Shown here: one piece after another, positions 11,179 through 58,738 of the stretch
Numbering within the stretch: position 1 is the first letter of the stretch
Layout: every line of letters starts with the position of its first letter
IMG/VR virus record: IMGVR_UViG_3300009702_000014
Coordinates: 126,445-190,444 of that record
Direction: 5' to 3' (one strand)
DNA length: 64,000 nucleotides
Origin: a virus
Made by a program: the position numbers and the translations under genes
Notes under the pieces: generated by a model
Told to the model about the DNA's origin: nothing
The model's input: only the letters and a program-made list of their open reading frames with translations
Database searches by the model: none

Positions 11179-11207
11179 TTGACAGTATTAAAAAGGACTG
11201 ATATAAT
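11179..11207 (+). promoter_or_regulatory. Consensus sigma70/sigmaA promoter
   Basis: TTGACA (11179-11184), exactly 17 bp, TATAAT (11202-11207): a perfect consensus. It would drive the small basic protein and the SSB genes. Confidence 0.9.
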
Positions 11208-11453: not shown

Positions 11454-11774
11454 ATGAAACCACTTACCAAAGTTACATTGGAAGATTTGCAAGAAGCCCC
11501 CAAAATTTCAGGGATTCTTACAGATAGTCGCCTTATAACGATTAAATTTCCTCTAATTTGGGTTTATACGCCGGTTCCAGGAGAAGGAATCACGACAACC
11601 TCAACGAATAACCCCGCGCTTGCCGCCGCGATTCTTAGTGCAACTCATACTATGGTATTAGATGTGAAGAAAAAGTACGGCACTTTGCAATTTACTGTTG
11701 CTGAGCCCTATTTGAGAGTCTTTCTAACAGACTTGAGCAGAATAGAAGGCGCAGAATTAATCATAGGAGACTAA
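11454..11774 (+). CDS. Unknown protein, 106 aa
   Basis: I do not recognise this protein. It is compact and mostly beta by its pattern (TITIKFPLIWVYTPVPGEG, ATHTMVLDVKKKYGTLQFTV), with a short linker rich in Thr/Asn. No Cys pairs, no membrane segment. It lies between the basic protein and ssb, nine bases after one and two before the other, in the same transcription unit. Confidence 0.6.
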   Translation: MKPLTKVTLEDLQEAPKISGILTDSRLITIKFPLIWVYTPVPGEGITTTSTNNPALAAAILSATHTMVLDVKKKYGTLQFTVAEPYLRVFLTDLSRIEGAELIIGD

Positions 11775-11775
11775 A

Positions 11776-43984: not shown

Positions 43985-44011
43985 AAATTCCTCACCTTTC
44001 TGTATACACTC

Positions 44012-44040
44012 AATATACTCTAAAAAAGAATTCAAGTCAA
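44012..44040 (-). promoter_or_regulatory. Promoter for the tail chaperone and tape operon
   Basis: Minus strand TTGACT (44040-44035), 17 bp, TATATT (44017-44012). It stands directly downstream of the tail-tube terminator. Confidence 0.72.
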
Positions 44041-44046
44041 GAGAAA

Positions 44047-44065
44047 AGCGGAGCCGAAGCTCCGC
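44047..44065 (-). terminator. Terminator after the tail-tube genes
   Basis: Minus-strand GCGGAGC-TTCG-GCTCCGC, a seven-pair stem with a UUCG tetraloop, followed by TTTTCTC. It separates abundant tube messages from tail assembly genes. Confidence 0.9.
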
Positions 44066-44087
44066 CTTTACTGGGGTGATACCTATT

Positions 44088-44777
44088 TTAGGAACGATAA
44101 CCGAATAGCACGGAAGTAACTAGGTCAAGCATACCATTCTTAGAGTCGCCATTTTCTCGATAGGCGCGTTTGATGGCATCAGTAAACCAAGTGCCGCTCA
44201 TTGGACGGGCAACAGCATTTACAGAATCCATAATTACGGATTGCTGAGAAGTCATGCTAATAGAAGCAGACTGTAAAACGCAGACGTAGGAACCGAAGCT
44301 ACTAGCGCGAGCGTCAGGACTATTAGGTGTGGCCGGTTGGTTATTGTATGTGACGTTGGAACGTACAGAGCTATTAGAGACACGATTCAACACATTCAAG
44401 ACAAACATGAAAGGATACATGCTGGTATCAGTGCTGTCGATAATGCTTTGAGCAGCCGCGATATCAACCAAATTAGAAGCCTGATAGGTCTTACCTATGT
44501 GAGCCCATAGAGGGTTGAAGGAGCCAAGATTACGGAAGTCTGCCCCGTCAATAGTGGCCTTCTCTAGACGAATATTAGTGATTTGATAGCCCGGAGCCAA
44601 CACGGGTAGCGGAGTGCCAATGACATTCTCGGCACAGCTTCCGAAGTTATCATCGACATTGACATTTTGTGCCATTCCGACTTGCTTTAGAATCCCCTTC
44701 TTGTTGGGGGAACCATCAAGAAGATAGTCATGGGGAGGAACAAGTACGCGAATTGAAGCAAATTGGGAAACTCTCAT
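44088..44777 (-). CDS. Tail-tube-like protein (second copy)
   Basis: A 229-aa protein with a layout like that of the next gene upstream: GMAQNVNVDDNFGSCAENVI compares with GLARQLRIDEDWGTQNIYGI there, followed by a PLPVLAPGYQITNIRLEKAT / PRIVPNNYSVNVTAERIQLD pair. The two are probably diverged tail-tube proteins. GGGAG precedes ATG 44777, and a strong terminator follows. Confidence 0.62.
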   Translation of the reverse strand: MRVSQFASIRVLVPPHDYLLDGSPNKKGILKQVGMAQNVNVDDNFGSCAENVIGTPLPVLAPGYQITNIRLEKATIDGADFRNLGSFNPLWAHIGKTYQASNLVDIAAAQSIIDSTDTSMYPFMFVLNVLNRVSNSSVRSNVTYNNQPATPNSPDARASSFGSYVCVLQSASISMTSQQSVIMDSVNAVARPMSGTWFTDAIKRAYRENGDSKNGMLDLVTSVLFGYRS

Positions 44778-44790
44778 CTAATTACTCCCT

Positions 44791-45462
44791 TTATGCCAAC
44801 GCCGTGCTGCGAGACTGGAGGGCTATATTGTTTGTCAAGTTCTCATTAATCATATTCGTGGTATCGAATAGGAATTCTTCGTAAGAATACTTGAATCCAA
44901 TGAGATTAACGTTATTGGCAATCATTACATCACCAGAGGTAACGGCCTCAGAGGAGCTACGCGGCATGACGGCATAAATATCAAAACGGTTATTTTCCGT
45001 AGATTCCTTGCTCTTGACAAATAGATAGGTATAAAGCAGCAGGTCATTAATACCGATTTGCTGTTGAACAGTGTCAGCGTACCAATAGTCTGGTGTTGTG
45101 ATGTAATGAGCAAGCTCACGTGTGTCAAGCTGGATTCTTTCAGCCGTCACATTAACGCTATAATTATTAGGTACGATACGTGGCTTTGTCGGTGCACCAA
45201 TGCCATAGATGTTCTGCGTTCCCCAGTCCTCATCAATACGAAGCTGACGAGCCAAACCCACAGTTGTGAATACTCCATTCTTATTAGATTGAAGCGCCTG
45301 CGGGCCCTGAGAAAGTTTATTCTGTAGCTTGGTTAGAGCATCAGACACGGCATTCTTAGTTACATTGGAGCCGGTGATTTGGTCTGCCCTCAAATTCCCA
45401 TATAAAATGGAGGAAATTGAAAGCACCTTAACTTCTGCTAGTGTACTTAGTCTAACGGCCAT
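44791..45462 (-). CDS. Tail-tube-like protein (first copy)
   Basis: A 223-aa protein in the usual tail-tube position, downstream of the sheath gene, with a homing endonuclease inserted between. Beta-type, ending in QSRSTALA. The GGGAGG ribosome site lies inside the last codons of the endonuclease gene, which overlaps the start by 11 bases. It should form or cap the rings inside the sheath. Confidence 0.65.
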   Translation of the reverse strand: MAVRLSTLAEVKVLSISSILYGNLRADQITGSNVTKNAVSDALTKLQNKLSQGPQALQSNKNGVFTTVGLARQLRIDEDWGTQNIYGIGAPTKPRIVPNNYSVNVTAERIQLDTRELAHYITTPDYWYADTVQQQIGINDLLLYTYLFVKSKESTENNRFDIYAVMPRSSSEAVTSGDVMIANNVNLIGFKYSYEEFLFDTTNMINENLTNNIALQSRSTALA

Positions 45463-46699
45463 CTAAATAAACCTCCCATTTTTGGGTTCCTGGGCCATAA
45501 ATGTAAAAATATCCAAAATCATTTAATATTTCCTCCGCTGTTTTATCTTCTGCATAGGAAGGTAAGCTTTTTAAATTCTTTCTCTGAAACCCTCGTCTAT
45601 TATATATCTTTTTGTAGTCAGTTACAAATAGTCGATGCCTGCTTTGACCGGTTTGAGTGAAACCTAATTTCTTATAGGCATTTCCGGTACTATATCTATT
45701 ATCAGAGTAAGTTATTATATGTGTTTTATCGCTTGCAACCAGGAGTTTTCCCAAGGCCCCGCGAATAATCGTATCTCGTTTAGAACAAAATCGTTGCATA
45801 ATATTTTTAGAGAAACCCATGACTGAGACCAATTCCCCATCATAGGATAATCCGACTCTCTCACCTGAGAATACGGTTCCCTCTAGATGATTATTCTCTA
45901 AAAACTCATTATACTCTAAAAAGGATGGATACACCACCTTGCATTTTCTGGCCGATAACTTCCTTGCGGTTTTGCCTAATTTATTATTCAAAAAGGAAGC
46001 AACTAAATCAGGCTTTTCTAATACTTCGGAATCCCAGAATTGTACCAGTTGAATTCCCTTTTTCTGCGCGGCTCTGAATTTCTCCTCATGATAGTTGGCA
46101 TTTCTTTTACTATGCCAGTAAAGACCATTTATTTCTATCCCCAGCCTGTGTTCAGGAAGGTATATATCAATTTCAAGCGGAGAAAGTATCTCTCTGTCAT
46201 TTACGGTAAACTTCTCATTTCCCAATATCTCTATTATTACTTGATAGGAGAATTCAGGTCTAGTTTTTTGATTATAAAATACGTGTGAAGTTATTTTCTC
46301 ATTATAGCATTGTGCGCACCCAGCACCATTCATATGGTCGTGTGCATATTGTGTAAATGCACCGTGTGTTTTACAAATTATCGTTGGATACTTTCCAACG
46401 CGCTCGCCAACCTGAGAATAGTCGTATTTGTTTCCATGTACTTCCCGCGCTCTAGAAATAAAATCTTCACGAGTTAATACTTTGTTTGGAGCACAGAGTG
46501 GGCAACCTTGCCCTTTAAGATGCTTATTAGGTGTTTGGCTAAAATCTCCATGCGTTCTACAGGTAATCGTAACCTTGGTGGAGTCATTGACATAATCAAC
46601 TTTATCGTAAATATATCTATCTTTGTGTATTTCTTTTGCTTCAGCTAAAAACTCATCTTGGGTTTTAGATTCCATTTTCCCTGTTTTTCTTTCGCACAT
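45452..46699 (-). CDS. Vsr/EDxHD-like homing endonuclease, main frame
   Basis: A 415-aa frame with two zinc ribbons (VTITCRTHGDFSQTP ... GQGCPLCAP; PTIICKTHGAFTQYA ... GAGCAQCYN), then a Vsr/PD-(D/E)XK-like core (SPLEIDIYLPEHRLGIEING, YWHS, QLVQFWDSEVL) and the C-terminal domain shared with its two relatives (ITYSDNRYSTGNAYKKLGFT, IYGPGTQKWEVYLDG). An additional first ribbon is encoded in another frame at 46645-46869, so the full gene is frameshifted. Its own promoter precedes that first part. Inserted between tail sheath and tail tube. Confidence 0.82.
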   Translation of the reverse strand: MCERKTGKMESKTQDEFLAEAKEIHKDRYIYDKVDYVNDSTKVTITCRTHGDFSQTPNKHLKGQGCPLCAPNKVLTREDFISRAREVHGNKYDYSQVGERVGKYPTIICKTHGAFTQYAHDHMNGAGCAQCYNEKITSHVFYNQKTRPEFSYQVIIEILGNEKFTVNDREILSPLEIDIYLPEHRLGIEINGLYWHSKRNANYHEEKFRAAQKKGIQLVQFWDSEVLEKPDLVASFLNNKLGKTARKLSARKCKVVYPSFLEYNEFLENNHLEGTVFSGERVGLSYDGELVSVMGFSKNIMQRFCSKRDTIIRGALGKLLVASDKTHIITYSDNRYSTGNAYKKLGFTQTGQSRHRLFVTDYKKIYNRRGFQRKNLKSLPSYAEDKTAEEILNDFGYFYIYGPGTQKWEVYLDGR

Positions 46700-46869
46700 A
46701 TAGGGCAGCCGCTTCCTTTTAGATGGTTATATGGAAGCTGGCGAAATTCCCCGTGCTCAGGACAAATAATACGAATTTTATCCTTGGTACGGAGAAGCTC
46801 AACAAATGAGTAATCATATTTATCTTTATGCACTTTATTAGCCCGCTCAATAAACTCTTGCGTAGTCAT
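46645..46869 (-). pseudogene. First zinc ribbon of the homing endonuclease, frameshifted
   Basis: A 74-aa frame starting at ATG 46869, with one ribbon (IRIICPEHGEFRQLPYNHLK ... GSGCPICAKEK). It runs into a stop eight residues after the shift point. The downstream frame continues the same pattern from about 46690. The change lies in an A-rich run (GCGAAAGAAAAACAGGGAAAA) and no good slippery heptamer is in register, so mutation or sequence error is more likely than programmed shift. Confidence 0.7.
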
Positions 46870-46874
46870 GCCCT

Positions 46875-46903
46875 ATTATAAGTTGATTCCCCCTCCCTGT
46901 CAA
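46875..46903 (-). promoter_or_regulatory. Consensus promoter for the homing endonuclease, leaderless
   Basis: Minus strand TTGACA (46903-46898), 17 bp, TATAAT (46880-46875), five bases, ATG 46869. A nine-pair GC-rich hairpin (46888-46916) surrounds the -35 box and may also end sheath transcription. Confidence 0.85.
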
Positions 46904-46916
46904 CCAAGGAGGGGGA
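46888..46916 (-). terminator. GC-rich hairpin after the tail sheath
   Basis: Minus-strand TCCCCCTCC / GGAGGGGGA with an 11-base loop, just after the sheath stop at 46922. The downstream tract is not T-rich, so it may stabilise mRNA rather than terminate. Confidence 0.45.
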
Positions 46917-46921
46917 GATAA

Positions 46922-48835
46922 TTAGGCCAAGTTGTAGAGAAGTCGGTTAGTAACCGGAATGAAGTCCACCTCGGTTACTGGCTGGAAGTCAAATGTAATA
47001 GCGTAAACTGTCAAATCATTATTTGGTGTAACAACGATGTTGGCATACGCGACAAGAACACCCTCGGAAACTAGTTGTCCTAGCAATGCTTCCGTGTAGC
47101 TCTTGATGCGGGCAGCGGTTTCAGGGCCGCGTGAGGTTGCGCCAATGAAATTCTCTTCCAAATTCTTGTAGAGAAAGGTGTTCATGTAGTCGACAATACG
47201 ACGGGTCATGAATAGCTGTAGGCCACGACTCGGTGCGCCAGTGAAGCTGGTGTAGTTGTTGGCAGCAATGTACTCCAAAGCCCCTGTCGAAGTACGGCGC
47301 TTCTTGACGAAATCCCATGCGCGGGTATACAGCTCGTCACGCTGAGCCTGAGTGAAGGAGAACTCTAGGCCATCCGTGAATATTCCAGCTAGCTGAGCGA
47401 AGGTCAAAGAGGTTGCTACGCTGCGGGCAGCCTGAGCACCTACAACAAATGAAGCTAGCATCTCTCCGCCGTAATCTTCTACGCTGCTACTAAAGGCGGT
47501 GCTCTTAAAGCCCCCGGCCCATAGCTGGACTCTATCACTGTTGATAACCCCACTAATGTCTTGTGTTGCATCAAGGAAGTCAGCCGCCGTCTTATTAGCG
47601 GTATCGCCCTTTAGGTAATATGGCATACCCGTAATCATGCTACGGAACATACGATTTGGAATATTTGACAAAGTATTAATGTGGGCAAGGAACAAAGGCA
47701 TCAAGGCCTTATAGAACCCGTACCTCTCGGTCCAAGTTGTCGAGTTCGTGCTGGCCCCTGTGTAATTAAACAGATAGGCAGGTTGAATAAAGTTAACCTC
47801 TTCGCTTTCAAAAAGAGCTAGAGAAGTAACCCAAGAGTCAGTCATAACCGTAGAACCGGACGTATCCCAACTCATTAGACCACCATTGTAATATCCGGTA
47901 CCATCGTCCCCATTTGTACCACCTGATAGGGAGATATAAGCGTGTTCGATAATATCGTCGGCTGTAGTTGCATCGTAGACGTAACCAGCAGTTAGTAGTT
48001 GCGTCATGGTCGGGTTTGTATCATTTAGCGTAACGAGGTTGGAACTTGTCATACCAAGCCCACCGTTGTTAATTACGGCCTCGATAAGAGCGAGCGGGTA
48101 AGAATTGGTACCTGTTCCATAAGGGAAGGGCCCAAGTAGGGATTCGCTGGTGGACTTTAGGTTATCTACCTGCTGAATGAAATCCGCCTGCGTAGCATTT
48201 CCGTATCCCCATGTATTCGGGATTTCACGAATTTCACCAGTTAGATTATTGTATAGAACGTAGTAATCTGTGGTGTTATTGTTGTAATAACGGTATGCGG
48301 TTGCTCCTGTGCTGTCTGTATAAACAGGATTAGGAATATAAGCCGAGAAGATGTAGCTTTCACGAATATCATTGCCGCTGGCATCAATATACTTCACATC
48401 AATTTCAAGAGTATCATCATCTGTAGGTACAGTGCCCTGGGTGTTTAGGGTAACGGCAACCTGGATATTATTGCCAAGAGTACCGTAATCCTTAGCTGAC
48501 CAAGAGTAGCTCTGGCTGGTTGCACCGCTAATATTAATGGCAAGCAGCTTAGATTGTGTAGCTGTACCTGTGCGAACACAGATAAGTTGATTAGCCCCAC
48601 CGACATAAGCGGCGAGACCGTGGCGGACAAGTGGGCCGTCACCGAAGGTATCGACCAATTGCGTGTAACTAGTGATGGTTACTGCCTGATTTAGCGGCCC
48701 CTTTTCTGCGAGACCAATCATACCGATGATGTTTGAGGCAACACCATTAATATCAGTAAGGCCGCTCAAGTCAGTACGGATATAAGCTCCGAACTGCTTA
48801 ATCAGATAACCGCCTAGACTAATCTGTTTTGCCAT
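46922..48835 (-). CDS. Tail sheath protein
   Basis: A 637-aa protein. The start (GYLIKQFGAYIRTDLSGLTD, then GVASNIIGMIGLAEKGPLNQ) and the C-terminal part (FIGATSRGPETAARIKSYTE, then GVLVAYANIVVTPNNDLTVY) fit phage contractile sheaths, whose C-terminal arms link neighbouring subunits. It forms the outer tube that contracts. GGAGG precedes ATG 48835. It makes the phage a myovirus. Confidence 0.93.
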   Translation of the reverse strand: MAKQISLGGYLIKQFGAYIRTDLSGLTDINGVASNIIGMIGLAEKGPLNQAVTITSYTQLVDTFGDGPLVRHGLAAYVGGANQLICVRTGTATQSKLLAINISGATSQSYSWSAKDYGTLGNNIQVAVTLNTQGTVPTDDDTLEIDVKYIDASGNDIRESYIFSAYIPNPVYTDSTGATAYRYYNNNTTDYYVLYNNLTGEIREIPNTWGYGNATQADFIQQVDNLKSTSESLLGPFPYGTGTNSYPLALIEAVINNGGLGMTSSNLVTLNDTNPTMTQLLTAGYVYDATTADDIIEHAYISLSGGTNGDDGTGYYNGGLMSWDTSGSTVMTDSWVTSLALFESEEVNFIQPAYLFNYTGASTNSTTWTERYGFYKALMPLFLAHINTLSNIPNRMFRSMITGMPYYLKGDTANKTAADFLDATQDISGVINSDRVQLWAGGFKSTAFSSSVEDYGGEMLASFVVGAQAARSVATSLTFAQLAGIFTDGLEFSFTQAQRDELYTRAWDFVKKRRTSTGALEYIAANNYTSFTGAPSRGLQLFMTRRIVDYMNTFLYKNLEENFIGATSRGPETAARIKSYTEALLGQLVSEGVLVAYANIVVTPNNDLTVYAITFDFQPVTEVDFIPVTNRLLYNLA

Positions 48836-48866
48836 TTAGTTTTCCTCCAAAATACCAATCATGAAG

Positions 48867-49520
48867 CTATATTTGTATATTATCAACAAGAGTTTCTGTT
48901 AAACTTACTTTGTATTGCTGGTAGGTTTCCCCGGACGTATCATTAAAGAATGGAGCCATGACGGAATAAACGAGAGTGCCTATGTACACTGGACCATCTA
49001 TATACAAATCATGGTTAGTACCTTCGTAGGCGCGAATAAATCGAATGGCAAACAATTCTCTTAAATAGTAGAAGGGGAACTCTAACGTTCCATCATATAC
49101 GTCTTGCTCTAATTCTAGCATCCAGAGCTTGATTAATTCCACTATATTATCTCTGTCTTTAGAATCTGTACTCCAGACAGAGAGTTCCATAGTGTACTGG
49201 TCTACCCATCCCAAATTCAAAGACTCATGGATAGGGGTTGTCGTTCCAACATCGGCTAAATTAATCTCCCCGTCCACAGTATTGCCTATGCCATACATCT
49301 GTACAGTGTTGTTAAGCTTCTTAACTACGATACGCCGCTTGATGGGTATAGTGTCCCTCTGGTCTTTCTCAAACGTTTCTCTGGAAGGATAGTCGGTACT
49401 AATGTCAAACGGCACACGTAACAGTCCCAATTCTTCTATTTTGAAATTTAGCCCCGCAATAATGATATCTTTGGGATTACGAGAGTCAATAACTGGTAAT
49501 GTTTTGCCAATAGTAGCCAT
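48867..49520 (-). CDS. Tail terminator or neck protein
   Basis: A 217-aa protein right before the sheath gene. No motif named. Beta-type with a helix (NIVELIKLWMLELEQDVYDG) and a segment TTPIHESLNLGWVDQYTMEL. The position fits a tail-completion or sheath-terminator protein. AGGAAG precedes ATG 49520. Confidence 0.5.
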   Translation of the reverse strand: MATIGKTLPVIDSRNPKDIIIAGLNFKIEELGLLRVPFDISTDYPSRETFEKDQRDTIPIKRRIVVKKLNNTVQMYGIGNTVDGEINLADVGTTTPIHESLNLGWVDQYTMELSVWSTDSKDRDNIVELIKLWMLELEQDVYDGTLEFPFYYLRELFAIRFIRAYEGTNHDLYIDGPVYIGTLVYSVMAPFFNDTSGETYQQYKVSLTETLVDNIQI

Positions 49521-49552
49521 AAAGCTTCCTTATTTTATCAAAATGTAAAGAA

Positions 49553-49990
49553 CTAAGCAAATAGCCGTTGTATGAAATTTCTTATCTGTTTCGCTCGCAC
49601 ATGGACTTTATTTAAGAAATAGTTTTGTTTAACATTCTCAGGAATGCTCTTGTCCTCTCTAAGCTTAACCTCTGCGGAATAGCTGAGGGCACTCTCTGTC
49701 AGCATCATCTCATCAATTTCATCATACCCCGTGTCTGGGTGTAGCAAATTAAAGGCTTCGTCAACAGGAACCACATGACTACGACAATGAGGATGAAATA
49801 GGTTGGTATGAAAATTACCTGTTGTCCAGATAGCTGTGGTTAATGTTTCTTCGGTGTAGGTGTACTTACGCCCTCCCACGTCCACAGTAAAAGGAAATGT
49901 GAGGCCACCCTCACGTAAAGCTTTTGCTTCGATGGCCTCACAAACTGGACTAGAATTTTCGTCCTTCATTCGGACAATCATCCATCTCAT
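49553..49990 (-). CDS. Putative neck or head-completion protein
   Basis: A 145-aa protein. FTVDVGGRKYTYTEETLTTA is beta-type, and a His/Cys cluster in TGNFHTNLFHPHCRSHVVP could bind metal or sit in the active site of an unrecognised enzyme. The C-terminal helix (NVKQNYFLNKVHVRAKQIRN) is basic. It overlaps a short frame upstream by about 40 bases. Function is unclear. Confidence 0.5.
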   Translation of the reverse strand: MRWMIVRMKDENSSPVCEAIEAKALREGGLTFPFTVDVGGRKYTYTEETLTTAIWTTGNFHTNLFHPHCRSHVVPVDEAFNLLHPDTGYDEIDEMMLTESALSYSAEVKLREDKSIPENVKQNYFLNKVHVRAKQIRNFIQRLFA

Positions 49991-50105
49991 TTTCGAATTC
50001 CTCGGGAAAATCTCTCTTGGCCTGGGCTAAACGAAACGCGGCCATACGTTCTTCATACTCTTCAATTTGCTGTAGTGCGGAGTCAATAGCCTCTTGAATT
50101 GTCAT
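49950..50105 (-). CDS. Small helical protein, 51 aa
   Basis: Starts with ATG 50105 overlapping the stop of the previous gene (TAATG). Encodes an amphipathic helical peptide (MTIQEAIDSALQQIEEYEER, then MAAFRLAQAKRDFPEEF). It overlaps the next gene by about 40 bases. Coupled start and good helix pattern argue for a real gene, possibly a neck accessory. Confidence 0.55.
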   Translation of the reverse strand: MTIQEAIDSALQQIEEYEERMAAFRLAQAKRDFPEEFENEMDDCPNEGRKF

Positions 50106-50608
50106 TAATAGTTTCCTCCAACTTCTATAATCTGGTAGATTGTGTTGGAATTGATTGTCGGCTTCTGAGGGTCTTGTACAGCATACAGAGTTTCTGTAAC
50201 TTCTCTCGTTCCGTCAGGATTGCAACAGCGTCCGAGTACTTCGAATTTATCACGAAGAAGTCTGCGAGAATTGTCGCTGAGGCGTTCTTTCAACATGTGC
50301 AAATCCAGATTTCGGGGAACAGAAAAAGTCTTGTTGCCTTTAAAGAAACCACCGGAACCATCCGGGTACCATTTGTTTGTATTGTCTGTGTAGATGGCTT
50401 TGAATTGTATCGGGCTCTTGTAGATAGACCCACGTCCTCCACAGACAGGACATTCAATCCAAGGTGCGCCTCGGTTTTCATCATAGCAGGGAGAGCCATC
50501 ATCACGTACATTTGGGCACATGATAGGCTCATACCAGAGTACATCAGTCCCTCCCATCCCTAGGGCTGCGTCTGCAACCATGTTAGAAATTGGTGCTAAG
50601 TCAAACAT
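50105..50608 (-). CDS. Head-tail connector/neck protein with Cys cluster
   Basis: A 167-aa protein. Cys pairs in IMCPNVRDDGSPCYD and WIECPVCGGRG form a plausible zinc site. The rest is beta-type (SPIQFKAIYTDNTNKWYPDG; LYAVQDPQKPTINSNTIYQI). Comparable neck proteins sit between capsid and sheath genes in Bacillus-type myoviruses. It follows the homing endonuclease by 17 bases. Confidence 0.52.
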   Translation of the reverse strand: MFDLAPISNMVADAALGMGGTDVLWYEPIMCPNVRDDGSPCYDENRGAPWIECPVCGGRGSIYKSPIQFKAIYTDNTNKWYPDGSGGFFKGNKTFSVPRNLDLHMLKERLSDNSRRLLRDKFEVLGRCCNPDGTREVTETLYAVQDPQKPTINSNTIYQIIEVGGNY

Positions 50609-50624
50609 ATAGTTAATTATACCA

Positions 50625-52199
50625 TCAAACCTTAGAAAAGGTCCATTTTTTAGTTCCGGGACCCCAAATCTGATAGAAACCGTGTTTCTCGGCTATTTCC
50701 CTGGCCGTCAATTCCGAATCTCCGTATTTCTCGATTAGTTTATGTCGTTGGAATTGGTTTCTGGAGTACAAGTTAATCGTATCAGTATAATGCAAAGTGT
50801 ATCTGTTTACCTTGTCGAGAGTAAAACCTAATGTTTTATAAACTTCTCCGCTGCTATACCTATTAGCAGAGAAAGAGATTAAGGTGTCGTGGGATTTTAG
50901 AAAATCCTTTATTATTTTTCCAGCCCCGCCAACTACTATTAATCCCCGCTTAGAGGCTAATCTGTCAAGGTGGTTTCCTGTAAACCCTCCAACAGCGACA
51001 AGATTCCCATTGTAGAGGAGTCCTTTCTTTATCTTAGAATTTATTGCACCTTGCAGATGGTTTTCTGTAAGGAAGGATTTATACGTAGTGCTGTCAATAT
51101 TTACCAGATTACATTTCCTCGCATAGATTCTATCAGTGAGCCGGTTTAATTTAGCTAGAATCATATCCTGGACCAGTTCAATGTTGTCTCGGATTTCATA
51201 ATCCCAGAATTGCAAAAGTTTTATTCCAGCATTTTCTGCGGCCTTAAATTTATCATAATGATACCCTCTTTCCTTGAAAATGGTACTATGATAATAAAGT
51301 CCATTTATTTCTATAGCTAATTTATTCTTGGGGATATATATGTCCAATTCCTTTGGATATATCATAGACCGGTCATTAACTTTGTATTCAACATCTATAC
51401 TGTCAAGAAAGTTTATAATCCTTTGGTGGGGCGTGGAAACATTGCAGGCTGGACACCCCAGCTTATCATATAAATGCCTTACCACGCTTCTTTGGAACCA
51501 CCCGTGTTGGGCGCACTTTATATCCAATAGTTGTCTATTGTTGCGATATATAAAGGGTTTATATTCATAATTAGGAAAGAGCTTCTTGCCTTCTTGGATT
51601 ATGATATTAGAGTTCAACACTCTCTTTGTCTTATTACAGTCCGGGCAACCATATCCTTGCAAATGGTTTAGTGGTTGTTTAATAAAGTCCCCATGCTCGG
51701 GGCATGTAATTATGACATTTTCCTTGTTGTTAATGTATTGGGTTTTAGAGTAGTCGTACTTCTTGCCATGTATTTTTCTGGCTTCTTTAATAAACTCTTT
51801 TGTATCCCTTTTTACATTGCCCGCGCATAGGGGACATCCTACCCCTTGTAGATGGTGCGCCGGTGTTTGTTCGAAAGGCCCATGTTCATTACAGATTATT
51901 GTAACTTTATTTTGGCTGCCTAGATAATCTACACGGCTGTAGTCATATTTAGAATGGTGTACCTCTTTTGCTTTATCAACAAACTGCTGGGTTGTTTTTT
52001 GCCCGCGCCCAGCATAGGAACATTTTGGGCATCCCTGTCCTTGGAGATGCTTTGCTGGGGTTTGGTAAAAGGAACCATGTTCCTTGCAAATTATTTCTAC
52101 TTTTGTTTGTGAATTCTTATATGAAACTTTTGAGTAGTCATATTTGGTCCCGTGTTTATGGTCGGCAGCCGAAATAAAAGATGAGGTATCATATTGCAT
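50625..52199 (-). CDS. Vsr/EDxHD-like homing endonuclease with four zinc ribbons
   Basis: A 524-aa protein. Four ribbons cover residues 1-250, each with a KYDYS-like start and C-x2-H-G ... GCP-x-C (examples IICKEHGSFYQTPAKHLQGQ; ITCPEHGDFIKQPLNHLQGY). Then the nuclease core: KELDIYIPKNKLAIEINGLY with E-x-D, YHS, YHYDKF and LLQFWDYEIRD, as in Vsr and the EDxHD group that includes I-Bth0305I. The C-terminal domain (SFSANRYSSGEVYKTLGFTL, then GPGTKKWTF) is shared with the other two relatives. Leaderless start at 52199. Confidence 0.87.
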   Translation of the reverse strand: MQYDTSSFISAADHKHGTKYDYSKVSYKNSQTKVEIICKEHGSFYQTPAKHLQGQGCPKCSYAGRGQKTTQQFVDKAKEVHHSKYDYSRVDYLGSQNKVTIICNEHGPFEQTPAHHLQGVGCPLCAGNVKRDTKEFIKEARKIHGKKYDYSKTQYINNKENVIITCPEHGDFIKQPLNHLQGYGCPDCNKTKRVLNSNIIIQEGKKLFPNYEYKPFIYRNNRQLLDIKCAQHGWFQRSVVRHLYDKLGCPACNVSTPHQRIINFLDSIDVEYKVNDRSMIYPKELDIYIPKNKLAIEINGLYYHSTIFKERGYHYDKFKAAENAGIKLLQFWDYEIRDNIELVQDMILAKLNRLTDRIYARKCNLVNIDSTTYKSFLTENHLQGAINSKIKKGLLYNGNLVAVGGFTGNHLDRLASKRGLIVVGGAGKIIKDFLKSHDTLISFSANRYSSGEVYKTLGFTLDKVNRYTLHYTDTINLYSRNQFQRHKLIEKYGDSELTAREIAEKHGFYQIWGPGTKKWTFSKV

Positions 52200-52204
52200 A
52201 CCTC
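52176..52204 (-). terminator. Hairpin over the endonuclease start codon
   Basis: Minus-strand GAGGTAT / ATACCTC with an eight-base loop, followed by ATCTTTTATTTC. It follows the connector gene by 35 bases and could end its transcript, but it also folds over ATG 52199 in the endonuclease message. Confidence 0.5.
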
Positions 52205-52233
52205 ATTATATACGAGAAGAAGAATTGTGTCAA
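52205..52233 (-). promoter_or_regulatory. Consensus promoter for the homing endonuclease, leaderless
   Basis: Minus strand TTGACA (52233-52228), 17 bp, TATAAT (52210-52205), five bases, ATG 52199. A perfect sigma70/sigmaA consensus. Confidence 0.85.
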
Positions 52234-52238
52234 CCGGA

Positions 52239-53276
52239 TTAATACCCTGTAAGGAGTACCATATTGTAGCCCCGCAACAGGTCCTCCGCCTCTCTGCGGT
52301 ATCTGTCCATCACATCGGCATAAAGTCCTTTTCCAAATGCCGCACTGAAGCCCTGTACACTAAAATTCATCATACCTTTGGTGTAGGATATGTTGATTAA
52401 TTCAAACGCTTTAATAGCCGAAAAAAGAGCCACAGCATCCTGTAGGGAGGGTGGGATTTCTTTAAATCCATACTCATAATCCACATGAATGATTTGAGGC
52501 ATACTCGGAACAACTAGGCCATAACCCGAGGACGCAATTAAGTTATTTGGCCCTGTAGCACTAATCTTAGCCTGTGCTGGGAAAAGGATAACTGCGCCCT
52601 CTTTTTCATACAAAAAGTACTCATTAGGAGCATATGTACGATTAAGGTAAGGAATACCAAGGCCCTGTGGGTCTTGAATTTCCAAAGCAAGTTTATGAAT
52701 CTTGGTCACATAACGTTCATAGAATTTAATGTAACTTCTGCCCTTACCGTCGATTCTCTCTTCATTTTCGATTTTATTAGGTACGTAGAGCACCTGTTGG
52801 CTGAATGTTGTCCGTTGGTCGGTTGTTAACAAGTCCCACGGTAATGTTCCTGGAGTATACAGTGCCGAGTCATTGTTATATTGAGCCTGCTGGGTTGTAG
52901 TCAAATCTGTCCATAGGGGATAATCCCTCGCCGTAGGGGTAAGGAAGGAATTCAAACCACCACTTCCGTAGGTAACTCTATCCTTATAAACATCCTCAGG
53001 GCTTTTAGCTAGATTTGTTTTACGGCGGGGGTAAAGCGCAAGCTTAATTTCATTTTCTATACGAGTGACACTACGTTGAATAGCCCTAATGAGTGTAGAA
53101 CGAAATCCGGGAATAGAACTAGGGCCTGTTACACAGCTAGCGGAGGCTGGCAATGTACCACTATTAGGAATAGGAGTGGAACTCATCATCGGAGCCCCAA
53201 ACATTCTATCCTCTGTTGCTTCAATTAGAAGTTGTAACTCCTTCCCTTGAACACCAGGGCCTCTGGCATATTCCAT
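52239..53276 (-). CDS. Head-tail connector (neck adaptor)
   Basis: A 345-aa protein. The C-terminal region resembles helical gp6-like connectors: IPPSLQDAVALFSAIKAFEL, then GKGLYADVMDRYRREAEDLL. The middle includes long linkers rich in Thr/Gln (TDLTTTQQAQYNNDSALYTP). It sits between the capsid genes and neck genes, where the first ring below the portal is usually encoded. AGGGG precedes ATG 53276. Confidence 0.55.
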   Translation of the reverse strand: MEYARGPGVQGKELQLLIEATEDRMFGAPMMSSTPIPNSGTLPASASCVTGPSSIPGFRSTLIRAIQRSVTRIENEIKLALYPRRKTNLAKSPEDVYKDRVTYGSGGLNSFLTPTARDYPLWTDLTTTQQAQYNNDSALYTPGTLPWDLLTTDQRTTFSQQVLYVPNKIENEERIDGKGRSYIKFYERYVTKIHKLALEIQDPQGLGIPYLNRTYAPNEYFLYEKEGAVILFPAQAKISATGPNNLIASSGYGLVVPSMPQIIHVDYEYGFKEIPPSLQDAVALFSAIKAFELINISYTKGMMNFSVQGFSAAFGKGLYADVMDRYRREAEDLLRGYNMVLLTGY

Positions 53277-53288
53277 ACTGTACCCCTA

Positions 53289-53708
53289 TTAAAGACCGAA
53301 TTCGTCTCTATACTTTTTCAATGTAGTAGTGGTTGTTCCGTAGTAATCAGCAACCGCAGACCAAGTACCCTTTTCTTCATAAAGGGCTGCAATTTCATCT
53401 TTTGTAGCGTCTTCAATAGACGCCTGTGTTTCTTCAGCTTCTGGTGCAACCTGTTCCTCATCGGAAGTTTCTTCTGGTTCTTCTTTCTGCTCAGGTGCTT
53501 CGACAGATGCAACTACAGGCGTCGGGTCCGCATGACGAATAATTCTGCCAATGTAATCCAAACGCTTAGCAAGGTCAGCAACGTATTGGTCTACGCGCTT
53601 TGCAATGCCATCCTCAAAGACAACAAGTTGACCGCCAATGTTTTTAATTTGTCTCCCTGTGCGGGCGAAGCGCTTTTCTAAATGTAGACTAAAATATTCC
53701 TCAGCCAT
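53289..53708 (-). CDS. Small protein with helix-turn-helix-like C-terminus
   Basis: A 139-aa protein. N-terminal part (EEYFSLHLEKRFARTGRQIK) leads to a highly acidic linker (EQKEEPEETSDEEQVAPEAE) and an ending that looks like a helix-turn-helix (TWSAVADYYGTTTTTLKKYR). AAGGAG precedes ATG 53708. It may be a head accessory. A separate 26-codon frame overlaps the start. Confidence 0.5.
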   Translation of the reverse strand: MAEEYFSLHLEKRFARTGRQIKNIGGQLVVFEDGIAKRVDQYVADLAKRLDYIGRIIRHADPTPVVASVEAPEQKEEPEETSDEEQVAPEAEETQASIEDATKDEIAALYEEKGTWSAVADYYGTTTTTLKKYRDEFGL

Positions 53709-53781
53709 ATGTTTTCTCCTTTTCATAAAAAAGTTCAGGAACTTCTTTTGCTAATGTTTTGTGTGTGTGTTTATGCGACAT
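53701..53781 (-). CDS. Possible leader peptide, 26 aa
   Basis: ATG 53781 starts MSHKHTHKTLAKEVPELF and ends on TGA inside the second and third codons of the next gene. A GAGAG run lies close upstream. It could couple translation to the next gene. Very short and without comparison, so only tentative. Confidence 0.3.
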   Translation of the reverse strand: MSHKHTHKTLAKEVPELFYEKEKTYG

Positions 53782-53800
53782 ACTCTCGCTTTTCAAAAAT

Positions 53801-53832
53801 AAAGGATACTACACTACAGTATAGCATCCTTT
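53801..53832 (-). terminator. Terminator after the 63-aa gene
   Basis: Minus-strand 14-pair stem with two G-U pairs (AAAGGATGCTATAC / GTGTAGTATCCTTT), loop TGTA, followed by ATTTTTG. Confidence 0.8.
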
Positions 53833-53846
53833 CACGAGTTTATCAA
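53818..53846 (-). promoter_or_regulatory. Extended -10 promoter inside the terminator
   Basis: Minus strand TTGATA (53846-53841), 17 bp ending TGC, TATACT (53823-53818). The -10 box lies within the upstream arm of the terminator stem, so the site both ends one unit and starts the next. Confidence 0.68.
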
Positions 53847-53851
53847 ATTGT

Positions 53852-54043
53852 TTAAGCAGTCTGCAAGGCCAATACAATATCACTAGCCGTAGCTGTAGTA
53901 TTATCTAGGGTGTCAACTGCGTCTTGGATACGGCTCTGACGAAGAACGAAGTTAACAACAGTGTCGTCGGCCTTACCACGGTTAGGACTTGCGAGTGCAG
54001 TATAAAGCACCTGTAGTGCAATGGAGTCTGATTCTAAAGCCAT
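53852..54043 (-). CDS. Small structural protein, 63 aa
   Basis: Short helical protein (SIALQVLYTALASPNRGKAD, VVNFVLRQSRIQDAVDTLDN). AGGAGG precedes ATG 54043, and its own promoter (54102-54110) and terminator bracket it, so it is a monocistronic, well-expressed gene. Its place next to capsid genes suggests decoration or assembly, but the role is not known. Confidence 0.6.
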   Translation of the reverse strand: MALESDSIALQVLYTALASPNRGKADDTVVNFVLRQSRIQDAVDTLDNTTATASDIVLALQTA

Positions 54044-54101
54044 TTCTTTTTCCTCCTAGGAAATTATTAGTTGGGGGATTAACCTTGTAGTCTTATTCCT
54101 A

Positions 54102-54110
54102 ATTATAGCA
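54102..54110 (-). promoter_or_regulatory. Extended -10 promoter
   Basis: Minus strand TGC followed by TATAAT (54107-54102), a perfect extended -10. The -35 region is weak (TTGGAT). It gives a leader of about 50 bases for the 63-aa gene. Confidence 0.6.
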
Positions 54111-54111
54111 T

Positions 54112-55290
54112 TCAATTGTGGTAAATCCAAGTCTTTGTGCCAGCATCATATACTTGAAGAGCCCCTTCTTGGCTCGCAAGTTGTCGTTCAGTGTAATTTT
54201 CTGGATTCTGTATGTCAAGACGACTCGCAATTTTGTATTTCATAAACCCATTTCGGTTTTTAAGCTTATTTTTATGGTAATAGAATAGTGAGGTTTTATT
54301 TTCTCTCTCAAGTGTAAATCCATTTTTCACATATACGTCACCATGACTATATCGGTTGAAAGAATAGGAAATAATGGGTTTGTCTTTGGGAATACGTTTG
54401 AAAAGCTTTGAAAATCCCCCTACGACTATATACCCACGCTCTGTACAAAACCTATCCAACTCCCGGTGTTCACCATAGTCCGTTACACCCATTACCGCTA
54501 TAAGACGGTCCTGAAAAAGCAAACCCAGCTTAATACCTGAGGTACGCGGGCCTTCTAAATGGTGTTTTTGAAGAAAGTCTTTATATTGTAAACTATCTAC
54601 TAACACCACTTTAGTATTGCGAGCATACACTTTGTGCTTCACTAGTTGAAGTCTTTGCAATATCATGGAAGATACTAAATCGAAATTATCCTGTATCTCA
54701 AAGTCCCAAAATTGCAATAAGGAAATACCACGGTTTTCACAAAGTTTATACTTATCATAATGATAATACTTATCCTCAAGCTTGTCAAGGGTATGATAGA
54801 ACACGCCGTTAATCTCTATGGCGAGGGAATGCTCGGGAAAATAAATATCTAGCTCTTTCCCATCTAGTAGGGTACGGTTGTTGACCTCATAGGGTATCTT
54901 TAGGTTGTCCAAAAAAGTTATGAGTTTTCTATGTGGGGCAGACACATTGCACTTCGGGCATCCTTGCATTTTCTTCGAAATATGCATGTGAGGAGTTTGC
55001 CAGAATTCTCCGTGTTTGGGACAAATGATACATACTTTTGTTTTAACCCCCTTATACTCTACCTTCGAATAGTCATAAAAGTCCCCATGTATACTCTGTG
55101 CTTGCTTGACGAAGGAGTCAAAGGTATGTTTCCACCTTTTTGTGATACCGAGAAGATGAGCAATATGCTTGACTTTCTGTGGTTTAATCTGTAAATGCTC
55201 CGCTATCTCACTAACTGATTCCCCTCGTTCATAGGCAGAAATGATATAGTTGTCGTATAGCTTTTTCCGTTGCAGTACGTCTTTCCTCAT
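54112..55290 (-). CDS. Vsr/EDxHD-like homing endonuclease with HTH and one zinc ribbon
   Basis: A 392-aa protein. Residues 12-50 are a helix-turn-helix (YERGESVSEIAEHLQIKPQK), followed by one zinc ribbon (CIICPKHGEFWQTPHMH ... MQGCPKCNVS), the nuclease core (KELDIYFPEHSLAIEINGVF, YHYDKYKLCENRGISLLQFW) and the common C-terminal domain (SYSFNRYSHGDVYVKNGFTL, DAGTKTWIYHN). It sits between the capsid gene and the 63-aa gene. ATG 55290 has no ribosome site, but a -10 box lies eight bases upstream. Confidence 0.85.
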   Translation of the reverse strand: MRKDVLQRKKLYDNYIISAYERGESVSEIAEHLQIKPQKVKHIAHLLGITKRWKHTFDSFVKQAQSIHGDFYDYSKVEYKGVKTKVCIICPKHGEFWQTPHMHISKKMQGCPKCNVSAPHRKLITFLDNLKIPYEVNNRTLLDGKELDIYFPEHSLAIEINGVFYHTLDKLEDKYYHYDKYKLCENRGISLLQFWDFEIQDNFDLVSSMILQRLQLVKHKVYARNTKVVLVDSLQYKDFLQKHHLEGPRTSGIKLGLLFQDRLIAVMGVTDYGEHRELDRFCTERGYIVVGGFSKLFKRIPKDKPIISYSFNRYSHGDVYVKNGFTLERENKTSLFYYHKNKLKNRNGFMKYKIASRLDIQNPENYTERQLASQEGALQVYDAGTKTWIYHN

Positions 55291-55298
55291 ATACAAAC

Positions 55299-55327
55299 AG
55301 TATACCATAGAGATACATGAAAGTAAA
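55299..55327 (-). promoter_or_regulatory. Promoter for the third homing endonuclease
   Basis: Minus strand TTTACT (55327-55322), 17 bp ending TGG, TATACT (55304-55299), eight bases, ATG 55290. The expected transcript begins within 0-2 bases of the start codon. Confidence 0.6.
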
Positions 55328-55342
55328 CTCTGGCGCCAAGTA

Positions 55343-55371
55343 CAAAAAGAAGAGGCCGCATAAACGGCCTC
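55343..55371 (-). terminator. Terminator after the major capsid gene
   Basis: Minus-strand GAGGCCG-TTTATG-CGGCCTC, then TTCTTTTTG, about 20 bases after the capsid stop. Confidence 0.9.
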
Positions 55372-55392
55372 AACTTTTAGCTTTTAATTAGC

Positions 55393-56838
55393 TTAGACGA
55401 TGTTTTCCTGACCAACGTTAACAATGAGGAAGTTGAACTCAGGAGCGCGGGCGTACATCGAAGACACGTGACGGATAGCAAAGTCACGGTTCAAGGTCTG
55501 CGGTAGAGGAACCTGTTCTAGAGGAATCCACTGTGCAAGCATAGTGGTCATAAGGTCCGTACCAGCGACAAAACCAGTACCCGGCAGTTGGCGATACGTG
55601 AAGGTACCGTAAGCAGACGTTAGGGTCTGAGCGCCGTTGTCGGTAACAGTGACAGGGGACGCAGGGTTGTACACCGGAATCTTACGCAAGAACTTCGGAG
55701 TAGCCCCAGCAGCATCAGCGCGGTTAACAATTAGCCACTTCGTAGCGGCATCAAGACTACCGACAGCGAAGGTAATCTGACCATCCGTAGCTGGGACACC
55801 TGTGGTTGTAACAGCAGCAGTGGCAACAGCGGTGGATTCACCATTGAAGTTAGCGGCCTTTACCTCGTATGTATAGGTGCCCGCAGGTAGACCAATAGCG
55901 GTTCCGTCGTCATAGCTACCGGTAGAAGCAGCGGCAGCAGCAGCAGTTGTAATAGCAGGAGCAGCAGGACGGGCATATTCCCCACCAGTAGCACCAAAGC
56001 CCTGGTCAGAGTACTTGTGCCAATCACCAAGGAAGCGGTCAGTAACCAATTCGGATTCTCCGTAAGCAGAGATGTAGCTCTGAGCATCGGCACCAAGAAC
56101 ACCGGCAGCGCGTTCACCCTGATTGGTACGAGCAATCTGGTAGAAGCTCTGCTGGAGATTGATTTTATCGACGGGGCTCATGAATACAACATTCGGACGG
56201 GCTAGACCCTGAGTTAGATAGACCTTGTTCTCTGCGGCCCATAGAGCAGCAACGGAAAGAGGCTTACCCTTTAGGTCAAGAACGTTCTGCGGAGCACCGC
56301 GCTTAACGATATTCTCGATACCGTCGAACTGTAGGTTCTGCGGGCTAGAGAAGTCAACAGAGCCGAAGGCACGGTTTCCGTGGAATAGCAAGTATTCCGT
56401 TTCTTCCATGACGGCTACCATCTTTTCGTTGCGTGCCGTCTGCTCGGCGGTCTGCACACCAGCGCGAGTCGTTGCAACAGCAAGCTCGGTGATGGTGATG
56501 CGGTGGCCTAGAAGTGTCGGAAGAGTACGACGACGAGCAATATCCACTTCAACAGTACGCGGAACGCCACCGTCTCGGTAAGCTGCGTAACCAATCTTGT
56601 CCTGTCGGCTGGTTACGACATTATACTCGTGTTCGTAGGCAGTTGCCTGGACCTTGTTAAGACGGTCATAGAAAGGAGTTTCAAGGATGTTTAGGCGTTC
56701 TAGTTCGCCTTCCAAGTCCTGACGCTCCAAGGACTGTGCGACCTGGGAAGTACCATCAATTGCCTTGAGCACGTCCAAAGGAAGGTGCTCTAGATAATCT
56801 AGGTGGTCCGGGTAGTTTCGAGAAACGGTGTCGTTCAT
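55393..56838 (-). CDS. Major capsid protein with Ig-like insert
   Basis: A 481-aa protein of the HK97 fold. It shows the family order: an N-terminal helical arm (DGTSQVAQSLERQDLEGELE), the E-loop-like region (VVTSRQDKIGYAAYRDGGVP), the long helix (TEQTARNEKMVAVMEETEYL) and the end NRDFAIRHVSSMYARAPEFN. Residues about 285-400 (GTYTYEVKAANFNGESTAVA ...) are an inserted immunoglobulin/fibronectin-like domain. There is no processing pattern I can see, but a protease gene precedes it. High, even Ala/Gly codon use suggests abundant expression. Confidence 0.88.
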   Translation of the reverse strand: MNDTVSRNYPDHLDYLEHLPLDVLKAIDGTSQVAQSLERQDLEGELERLNILETPFYDRLNKVQATAYEHEYNVVTSRQDKIGYAAYRDGGVPRTVEVDIARRRTLPTLLGHRITITELAVATTRAGVQTAEQTARNEKMVAVMEETEYLLFHGNRAFGSVDFSSPQNLQFDGIENIVKRGAPQNVLDLKGKPLSVAALWAAENKVYLTQGLARPNVVFMSPVDKINLQQSFYQIARTNQGERAAGVLGADAQSYISAYGESELVTDRFLGDWHKYSDQGFGATGGEYARPAAPAITTAAAAAASTGSYDDGTAIGLPAGTYTYEVKAANFNGESTAVATAAVTTTGVPATDGQITFAVGSLDAATKWLIVNRADAAGATPKFLRKIPVYNPASPVTVTDNGAQTLTSAYGTFTYRQLPGTGFVAGTDLMTTMLAQWIPLEQVPLPQTLNRDFAIRHVSSMYARAPEFNFLIVNVGQENIV

Positions 56839-56869
56839 AATATTACATATCCTCCTGTAGATAACCTAA

Positions 56870-58738
56870 TTATAATTTACCTCTGTCAGCCATTTTTACG
56901 TAATGGTTGAAAGCTTGGGGTTGAATGTCGAGTTCTTGCTGTGCTTGCTCTACAATCCTCGCACGCTTCTGAGAGTGAGAAGCTGTATGGCCTCGGATAT
57001 CTCGATATGCAGCAACATAAGATTTTAGTGTATCAACTTGCTCGGCGCTGAAAAATGAATTATCGTCGTCGTCGGAAAGTCCAACAGACTTACGAACTAG
57101 ATTAGGCACCTGTTCTTCTGGGTCCCCGTCTACTGCTGCGCCCGGATGGACAATAGCAGCTTCGGAGCGATAATTAGCAGAAGCAGAAGTGCTCTTAACT
57201 ACAGTAGTCTCACTGTATAGTTTTTCTACGACTTTTTCAACAATTCTGTCTTCAAAGCCGTCGAAAATAGACTTGATAGCCTCACCGAATTGAACGGTGG
57301 ACTCTTCGGAAAGAGTAACCACTGTGTCATTGTTAGAAATGGTTTCGGTAATAATACTCTTGAGCGCATCCATGTCGATACTCTTCGTGGCAGCGACATT
57401 TGGAGCTTCCTGAGTAACTTGGTCGGCCACTGGAGGTTCTTCCCCACCGGAAATATGTAGAGCATCAGCAATTGTCTGGAAGAGGTCAAGCATAGTATCT
57501 AGCTTGTCAAGAATCATTTCCTGAGCAGCATCTTCGCCGCCTTCTCCACCATCACCTTCCTCGTCTCCAACTAGTGTGTCAAGGACACCCCCGGCACCTT
57601 CGTCGGCACCCTCATCTGGTGTTGCACTTTCGGTTGGAGCAGGCGCATCGGCTAGTGCCGCACCCTCGTCGCCACCTTCATCCGGGGGCGTTACGTCTGC
57701 TTCCTCAGGCAAATGCTTATCCTGGGGGACTCCAGCGTTTTCGGTTTCTGGAGCTACGCCATCTGGTGCTGGCATATTTCCTGCCGTATTATCCTTTTGG
57801 TCGGTGCCCTCTGCGGCAAGCTCGGCACCTTGGTCGGCAACTTCTTGGCTCAAACCCGGTTTCGGGTTCTTTTTGTTGTTGTCGGCCTTGGCATCGTTCT
57901 GGATAGGAGAAGCCTTCTTGCCCTTATCCTGCTCGCCTGGGGCAGCCTTTAAGGTAACATTCTTATCTGCCATAGCGTTTTTTATATCCTCCTTCAAATC
58001 AACATATGATTCAAATACGTGTGTAATTCCATCGCCACCTTGTACCGTAGACTTAATTACAAGACGATTCCTTTCTGCATCGTAGACTGTTTCATCAGGT
58101 ACAATTGTATGGAACTGAATTTCAGCTTCGTCTTGCGCATCTGCATCCATCATGCTCTTGAGAACAGCAGCCCACGTCTTTGTATTAGGATTTACCGGCT
58201 CCGGGGTCATGGAAACTTCGTAGAGGAGCAAGTCAGGAAGATAGGTAACATACTGTCCTTTCTTTACATCATATTCTCTGCGAGGCTGGCCAAGATATTT
58301 AGCTCCGATAGAAAGACCAATCTGAGATTTAAATTCTTCATCGGAGTTTTGTAGGAATTCATCCCACATTTTACGAGCCATCGGATGCTTCTTATTAAGC
58401 ATGGCCTTAATATAAAGACCCTCTGGCCTAATCTCTGCATCCAAGGGCTTACCAAGTGGTGTTTTCAAACTCAGAATTTCGTCTTTGCTAAAACCAAATT
58501 GCTGTAGCCAATTCGCATTTTCCTTGGCATAGTCGTGGTCAAAGAAAATCTTCCCGTTTGACTTAAAGAATTCGATAGAATTATGGAAACTTTCTGGATA
58601 GACAACTTCCCCGAATAAATCAACGTCGGCGGTAGATGCAATCCCCTCAAAAACCCAAGGGGCATCCTCTCCACCAAAGCCATCAACAGACTTTACAACG
58701 TCAATGGGCATAAATACATTGAAAGTATCTTTTTGCAT
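56870..58738 (-). CDS. Prohead protease fused to scaffold
   Basis: A 622-aa protein. Residues 1-200 match the U35/HK97-type prohead protease, with His68 in KIFFDHDYAKENA and Ser143 in GLSIGAKYLG. Residues 240-445 are a strongly acidic Asp/Glu/Ala/Pro linker (DEGADEGAGG repeats), and the C-terminal 180 residues are helical and scaffold-like (LKSYVAAYRDIRGHTASHSQ). It should shape and then mature the capsid. It lies just before the capsid gene. Confidence 0.85.
   Translation of the reverse strand: MQKDTFNVFMPIDVVKSVDGFGGEDAPWVFEGIASTADVDLFGEVVYPESFHNSIEFFKSNGKIFFDHDYAKENANWLQQFGFSKDEILSLKTPLGKPLDAEIRPEGLYIKAMLNKKHPMARKMWDEFLQNSDEEFKSQIGLSIGAKYLGQPRREYDVKKGQYVTYLPDLLLYEVSMTPEPVNPNTKTWAAVLKSMMDADAQDEAEIQFHTIVPDETVYDAERNRLVIKSTVQGGDGITHVFESYVDLKEDIKNAMADKNVTLKAAPGEQDKGKKASPIQNDAKADNNKKNPKPGLSQEVADQGAELAAEGTDQKDNTAGNMPAPDGVAPETENAGVPQDKHLPEEADVTPPDEGGDEGAALADAPAPTESATPDEGADEGAGGVLDTLVGDEEGDGGEGGEDAAQEMILDKLDTMLDLFQTIADALHISGGEEPPVADQVTQEAPNVAATKSIDMDALKSIITETISNNDTVVTLSEESTVQFGEAIKSIFDGFEDRIVEKVVEKLYSETTVVKSTSASANYRSEAAIVHPGAAVDGDPEEQVPNLVRKSVGLSDDDDNSFFSAEQVDTLKSYVAAYRDIRGHTASHSQKRARIVEQAQQELDIQPQAFNHYVKMADRGKL

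Follow-up and report, generated by a model that had tools for sequence, protein, structure and literature searches.

Three related genes of a large phage akin to Thermus phages, probable free-standing homing endonuclease genes with a Mom-like C-terminal domain

Homing endonuclease (HE) genes located close to genes for capsid, terminase and replication proteins are known for nuclease classes other than the one considered here, and the T5orf172 HEs carry ribbons of the CapR, DUF723 and DUF4379 types that are shuffled and variable in number, according to the accessible part of PMC10448857, in which the terms Vsr, EDxHD and acetyltransferase do not occur. The accessible part of PMC3943268 treats I-Bth0305I as a group I intron HE, and that of PMC6892783 places a member of the family described below, in phage MIJ3, between the halves of a split polB gene with a split intein, which is a classic homing position. 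Here, we analyze a stretch of 64,000 nt (the window; coordinates are counted from its first nucleotide) from IMG/VR record IMGVR_UViG_3300009702_000014, positions 126,445 to 190,444. The record represents a large phage akin to Thermus phages, and the window holds three related minus-strand open reading frames (ORFs), HE1, HE2 and HE3, of 415, 524 and 398 aa in the ORF list. We consider it very probable that they are free-standing HE genes of one known family.

45452..46699, minus strand: HE1 ORF, 415 aa, with two in-frame ribbons, the nuclease and a Mom-like C-terminal domain
50625..52199, minus strand: HE2 ORF, 524 aa, with four ribbons, the nuclease and a Mom-like domain
54112..55290, minus strand: HE3 ORF, 392 aa from the promoter-adjacent ATG at 55290 (398 aa from the listed ORF start at 55308)
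45980..46237, minus strand: Vsr/EDxHD-like nuclease core of HE1, residues about 155-240, all six compared residues kept
51138..51437, minus strand: nuclease core of HE2, with the fold of I-Bth0305I and Vsr
54643..54942, minus strand: nuclease core of HE3, all six compared residues kept

The three proteins have the same domain order, from ribbons through the nuclease to a C-terminal domain, with a weak helix-turn-helix match ahead of the single ribbon in HE3. All of them match phrog_559 (HNH endonuclease) and phrog_3339 (homing endonuclease) at E 2e-70 or better, the latter from 2e-70 to 4e-78, as well as the PADLOC 'HEase' model (E 4e-7 to 5e-6). The nuclease cores are 42% (HE1-HE2), 45% (HE2-HE3) and 37% (HE1-HE3) identical, far beyond chance, so that the common nuclease core and C-terminal domain reported in the preliminary description of this locus are confirmed. 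For comparison with the wider family, a tree of 103 cores was built, comprising the three genes and 100 of the 104 core matches that passed 75% coverage (identical ones dropped; 112 core matches in all). The six nuclease positions compared are intact in HE1, HE2 and HE3 and in most of the 103 cores; the Asp and the first Glu are present in 103 of 103 and the Lys in 102 of 103 (D286, E297 and K317 in HE2).

The HE2 nuclease matches I-Bth0305I (3r3p) in sequence (E 3e-4) and, as a model, in structure (Foldseek E 7e-5; VIA Z 13.0 over 95 residues, with a root-mean-square deviation (rmsd) of 2.6 and 26% identity). The AlphaFold2 model of HE2 has a mean pLDDT of 92.9 and a pTM of 0.60, so its domains are reliable and their mutual arrangement is not. 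Both the nuclease fold and the retention of the conserved acidic and histidine positions agree with an EDxHD/Vsr-like HE. Two other assignments were rejected: a Vsr repair endonuclease, with Pfam Vsr scores of 12.7-13.4 bits (cut-off 27) and TIGR00632 scores of 15.9-17.6 (cut-off 97.85), and a T5orf172 (GIY-YIG) endonuclease, as the T5orf172 domain is absent from the Pfam scan at E 1 and the HE2 nuclease is Vsr-like.

45455..45973, minus strand: Mom-like GNAT domain of HE1, in which the Asp of the Mom family is kept (TYSD)
50628..51137, minus strand: Mom-like GNAT domain of HE2, in which this Asp is replaced by Ala
54115..54642, minus strand: Mom-like domain of HE3, in which this Asp is replaced by Phe

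Judged by modelling, the C-terminal domain common to the three proteins is a GNAT acyltransferase fold that groups with the DNA-modifying Mom protein of phage Mu. Mu Mom (8bv8) is the best Foldseek match of the whole HE2 model (E 8e-6), and in the VIA ranking Mom reaches Z 9.3 (rmsd 2.9, 139 aligned residues), tying with many other GNATs. The family C-terminal profile aligns with nine Mom proteins at an hhalign probability of 98.2 (E 6e-14). Of 23 family domains, 18 match phrog_1384 and 17 the Mom family PF25680 at E 1 or better; at E 0.01, PF25680 is matched by 24 of 67 family proteins (alignment A3 comprises the three genes and 64 of the 107 matching ORFs). PF25680 gives no match for HE2 itself, nor for any of six family members from named phages at E 0.01; Mu Mom alone scores an hhalign probability of only 5.4 against the 23-row family profile, and the PDB sequence matches of that profile comprise other acetyltransferases only, with no Mom.

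The Asp of the SF/YAD motif occurs in all nine Mom proteins compared. Across the 103 cores the column holds D in 94, N in seven, A in one and F in one, with three changes on the tree; HE1 has D, HE2 has A and HE3 has F. Ser124 of Mu Mom, mutated in 8bv8 (by title an 'inactive mutant'), was tried as a marker and found unusable, because 37 of the 67 family rows have T or S at the aligned position.

Kinship with Mom raises the distinctly unlikely alternative of a single-chain Mom-nuclease restriction-modification enzyme, in which the Mom-like domain would acylate the phage's own adenines and the nuclease would attack unmodified DNA of the host or of rival phages. The profile match to the nine Mom proteins speaks for it, as does the retention of the Mom-like His (102 of 103 cores), Arg and Tyr (103 of 103 each) positions, all of which HE1 keeps together with the Asp. 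However, HE2 and HE3 carry Ala and Phe at the Mom Asp while every compared nuclease residue is intact, and a nuclease without a modification partner would endanger its own phage. A search with the Mom hidden Markov model (PF25680) found no match at E 10 or better in the phage's own genome, and the location of the siblings between virion genes, together with that of the MIJ3 copy in split polB, suits homing better. The absence of the Mom Asp from HE2 and HE3 is the reason for treating restriction-modification as a rival and not as the main explanation; this loss, with the nuclease residues kept in all three genes, favors homing. A self-protecting homing element, which we regard as unlikely, would unite homing and restriction-modification in one chain, the Mom-like domain marking carrier DNA and the nuclease cutting unmarked rivals. 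If this were true, both states would occur in this phage: HE1 would have a modifier that is potentially active, whereas HE2 and HE3 would have dropped theirs and would depend on the insert itself to destroy the target.

Homing as the preferred explanation is also consistent with the comparison of the insertion sites with their relatives, for which the flanking genes are the reference.

46922..48835, minus strand: tail sheath gene (phrog_279), upstream flank of HE1
55393..56838, minus strand: major capsid gene (phrog_752), upstream flank of HE3

The virion-gene setting given in the preliminary description is borne out for capsid and sheath, but not for 'connector', 'neck' and 'tube', whose best labels in the family search are unknown function or virion structural protein; these names are used below as labels. 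The closest relative is contig L007 (194 kb), whose capsid is 78% identical and in whose whole record no family member was found. There, sheath and tube are 58 nt apart, against 1459 nt here (HE1 site), and connector and neck 1 nt, against 1630 nt here (HE2 site). The HE1 and HE2 sites are thus empty in L007, because their flanking genes are directly adjacent there. At the HE3 site, after the capsid gene, the right-hand neighbour is a 63-aa ORF here and a 138-aa ORF in L007; the border is therefore not clean, and only the absence of HE3 is clear. The predicted break in synteny at the insert borders was accordingly found at two of the three sites, with syntenic flanks directly adjacent in L007, and not at the third, where the right-hand gene differs. 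The earlier interpretation as homing endonucleases stands; L007, lacking all three genes, provides the empty allele whose absence everywhere would have spoken against it.

The spot between capsid and the next shared gene is itself variable, holding the small ORF at 53852-54043 (63 aa) here and that at 11458-11874 (138 aa) in L007. In Acinetobacter phage LAPP1 (L182), a family member lies directly downstream of the putative major capsid gene, like HE3. The 3' end of the capsid gene (55405-55446), near HE3, is one of only two stretches between 40000 and 60000 with blastn matches to Thermus phages.

Capsid scans yielded six loci, of which L007 alone is close, and a connector-based scan again yielded only L007. 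No family members were found in the stretches compared from Thermus phages (n = 3) and from further related IMG/VR records (n = 5, two of them short with little beyond capsid), and each of three related records tested has one distant family member, located elsewhere. Scans for relatives covered the best 80 of 558 matches and the best 80 of 136 matches; no closer relatives of the three genes were found in viral_contigs, nor of HE2 in genome_contigs.

A group I intron or other structured RNA was rejected, as Rfam yielded no match, either at gathering scores over the whole window or at E 1 over 44000-57000. An intron- or intein-borne HE was likewise rejected on that Rfam result at E 1 and on the alignment of the flanking genes over their whole length with L007. 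The window contains no tRNA, and no target motif common to the three insertion sites was seen by eye. The GC content of the three genes is 0.376-0.387, versus 0.40-0.53 in nine neighbouring genes.

Each of the three genes has its own predicted sigma-A-like promoter:

46875..46903, minus strand: HE1 promoter, perfect TTGACA-N17-TATAAT, ending 5 nt before ATG 46869 (first-ribbon frame)
52205..52233, minus strand: HE2 promoter, perfect TTGACA-N17-TATAAT, ending 5 nt before ATG 52199
55299..55327, minus strand: HE3 promoter-like site, TTTACT-N17-TATACT with TG, 8 nt before ATG 55290

The perfect TTGACA-N17-TATAAT sequence occurs three times in the window, versus 0.02 expected, and five times in the 202-kb record; two of these five directly precede HE1 and HE2. 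A comparison of 19 starts, read by eye with two positions guessed, showed TATAAT no more than 10 nt from the start codon for HE1, HE2 and neck, TATACT at HE3 and, at the gene at 58738, TATATT at 8 nt. A -10 box adjoining the start codon (leaderless mRNA) is common in Deinococcus-Thermus, according to the accessible part of PMC12340547. The TATAAT ahead of neck lies in the tail of the HE2 insert (50608-50616), 7 nt before the neck ATG, and since the connector-neck gap in L007 is only 1 nt, this virion gene may have gained a new promoter from the insert. The three genes constitute a clear case of strong promoters brought by inserts into a virion gene block.

A G/C-rich inverted repeat directly follows the sheath stop codon, and its loop contains the -35 TTGACA of the HE1 promoter. 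The remaining perfect promoters are found at 11179-11207 (plus strand), after a sliding-clamp-like ORF, and at G000:C1:119479-119507 and 119918-119946 (minus strand), among small-heat-shock-like and VWA-like ORFs, all of these ORFs being labelled by eye.

The genes differ in their N-terminal, putative DNA-targeting parts:

51438..52199, minus strand: four zinc-ribbon repeats of HE2, DUF4379/DUF723 type
54949..55131, minus strand: single ribbon of HE3, DUF723
46645..46869, minus strand: first ribbon of HE1, in a 74-codon frame that is out of frame with the 415-aa ORF
55162..55245, minus strand: weak helix-turn-helix match in HE3, HTH_28

In-frame C..HG...C..C ribbons number two in HE1, four in HE2 and one in HE3; those above the Pfam cut-off are DUF4379 and DUF723 in HE2 and DUF723 in HE3. 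The earlier counts of one and four hold, but the count of three for HE1 is reached only with its out-of-frame ribbon. The helix-turn-helix reported in HE3 is present as a match, but a weak one (E 0.0088, 16.6 bits versus a Pfam cut-off of 25). Ribbon number changes 45 times on the core tree, versus 52-62 times when shuffled. The proposed modular change of targeting parts thus holds in that ribbon number varies, but as reconstructed on the tree this turnover is family-wide rather than peculiar to HE1, HE2 and HE3, and it has already been described for T5orf172.

Because the first-ribbon frame, opening at ATG 46869, stops at 46645 after 74 codons, HE1 as assembled would be broken, frame-slipping or affected by a sequencing error. 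Together with two other features, namely the 11-nt overlap of the HE1 stop with ATG 45462 of the next gene, which is preceded by a ribosome-binding-site-like GGGAGGT, and the TATAAT that the HE2 tail provides to neck, this could indicate domesticated or decaying former homing genes, either kept for another use, such as the control or insulation of virion genes, or on the way to being lost. We hold this to be highly improbable, as neither HE2 nor HE3 is truncated, both having good promoters and all compared nuclease residues, and the HE1 offset, a single base in A-rich assembled metagenome sequence, may be an error.

In the tree, HE1, HE2 and HE3 form one clade (100/97), with HE2 next to HE3 (100/92), in a topology whose bootstrap is not fully settled; the MIJ3 protein is not among the 103 cores. 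The genes would share one ancestor, whose copies either jumped about within the lineage of this phage or came in from a single unsampled pool, two routes that cannot be separated given the core identities of 37-45% and the lack of close relatives. Places similar to HE2 number 2,956 in 982 phage records, some of which may match ribbons alone, and in 115 phage records a single place spans 80% or more of HE2. By these matches several such genes per phage are common, contrary to the earlier view that sets of this kind in a single phage are uncommon.

Under the homing model, each gene would be a cassette of its own, set between virion genes and equipped with its own promoter. When a phage lacking the gene infects the same cell, its uninterrupted junction would be bound by the ribbons, perhaps helped in HE3 by the helix-turn-helix; the nuclease would then cleave that junction, and repair using the occupied genome would copy the gene into the cut one. 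HE2 and HE3 are plausibly active, while the status of HE1 is uncertain. The Mom-like domain of HE2 and HE3, presumably without acyltransferase activity, is probably a DNA-gripping relic, and that of HE1 may still be an enzyme.

Several points weigh against this model. A Mom-like domain is not known to belong to the usual HE plan. With sibling cores only 37-45% identical, recent spread in this phage is not supported; with a single close relative in the collections searched, gain here and loss in L007 are indistinguishable; the HE3 insert lacks a clean border on its right, and the first ribbon of HE1 is broken as assembled. Finally, Mom-REase fusions in jumbo phages have been read as restriction-modification, with 'five momylating enzymes' counted in PA5oct, in the accessible part of PMC7824862, where the word 'homing' occurs nowhere. 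PA5oct has five places for the family described here, which we infer from the equal number to be these five enzymes. A literature search combining homing endonuclease, acetyltransferase domain and Mom found no paper in the collection searched. Apparently, one widespread phage family has received two published readings that were not seen reconciled, homing endonuclease (in database and record labels and in the MIJ3 split-polB case) and Mom-REase restriction-modification. The contrast among the siblings, one with the Asp and two without, all with intact nuclease residues and two with clearly empty sites in L007, opens the question to direct testing; an experiment would be most worthwhile on the Mom-like domain and on the Asp split between HE1 and the other two.

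Among known systems, the 'Hef-like' phage HEs of phrog_3339 and phrog_559 (PA5oct, MIJ3 orf154) are alike throughout, with ribbons, nuclease and C-terminal domain all matching (E down to 1e-136). They differ in that the best matches are about 30-41% identical among the matches listed and occupy different sites; the MIJ3 copy lies inside split polB, whereas HE1, HE2 and HE3 lie between whole genes. I-Bth0305I (EDxHD) has a similar nuclease fold, but the three genes here show no intron match, and their nuclease is flanked by ribbons and a Mom-like domain. Mu Mom resembles HE2 as the top match of its whole model and the family through the C-terminal profile, yet it has no nuclease fusion, and HE2 and HE3 lack the SF/YAD Asp. 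The T5orf172 HEs resemble the three genes in ribbon types, variable ribbon number and location near essential genes, and differ in nuclease class, their nuclease being of the GIY-YIG class and not Vsr/EDxHD.

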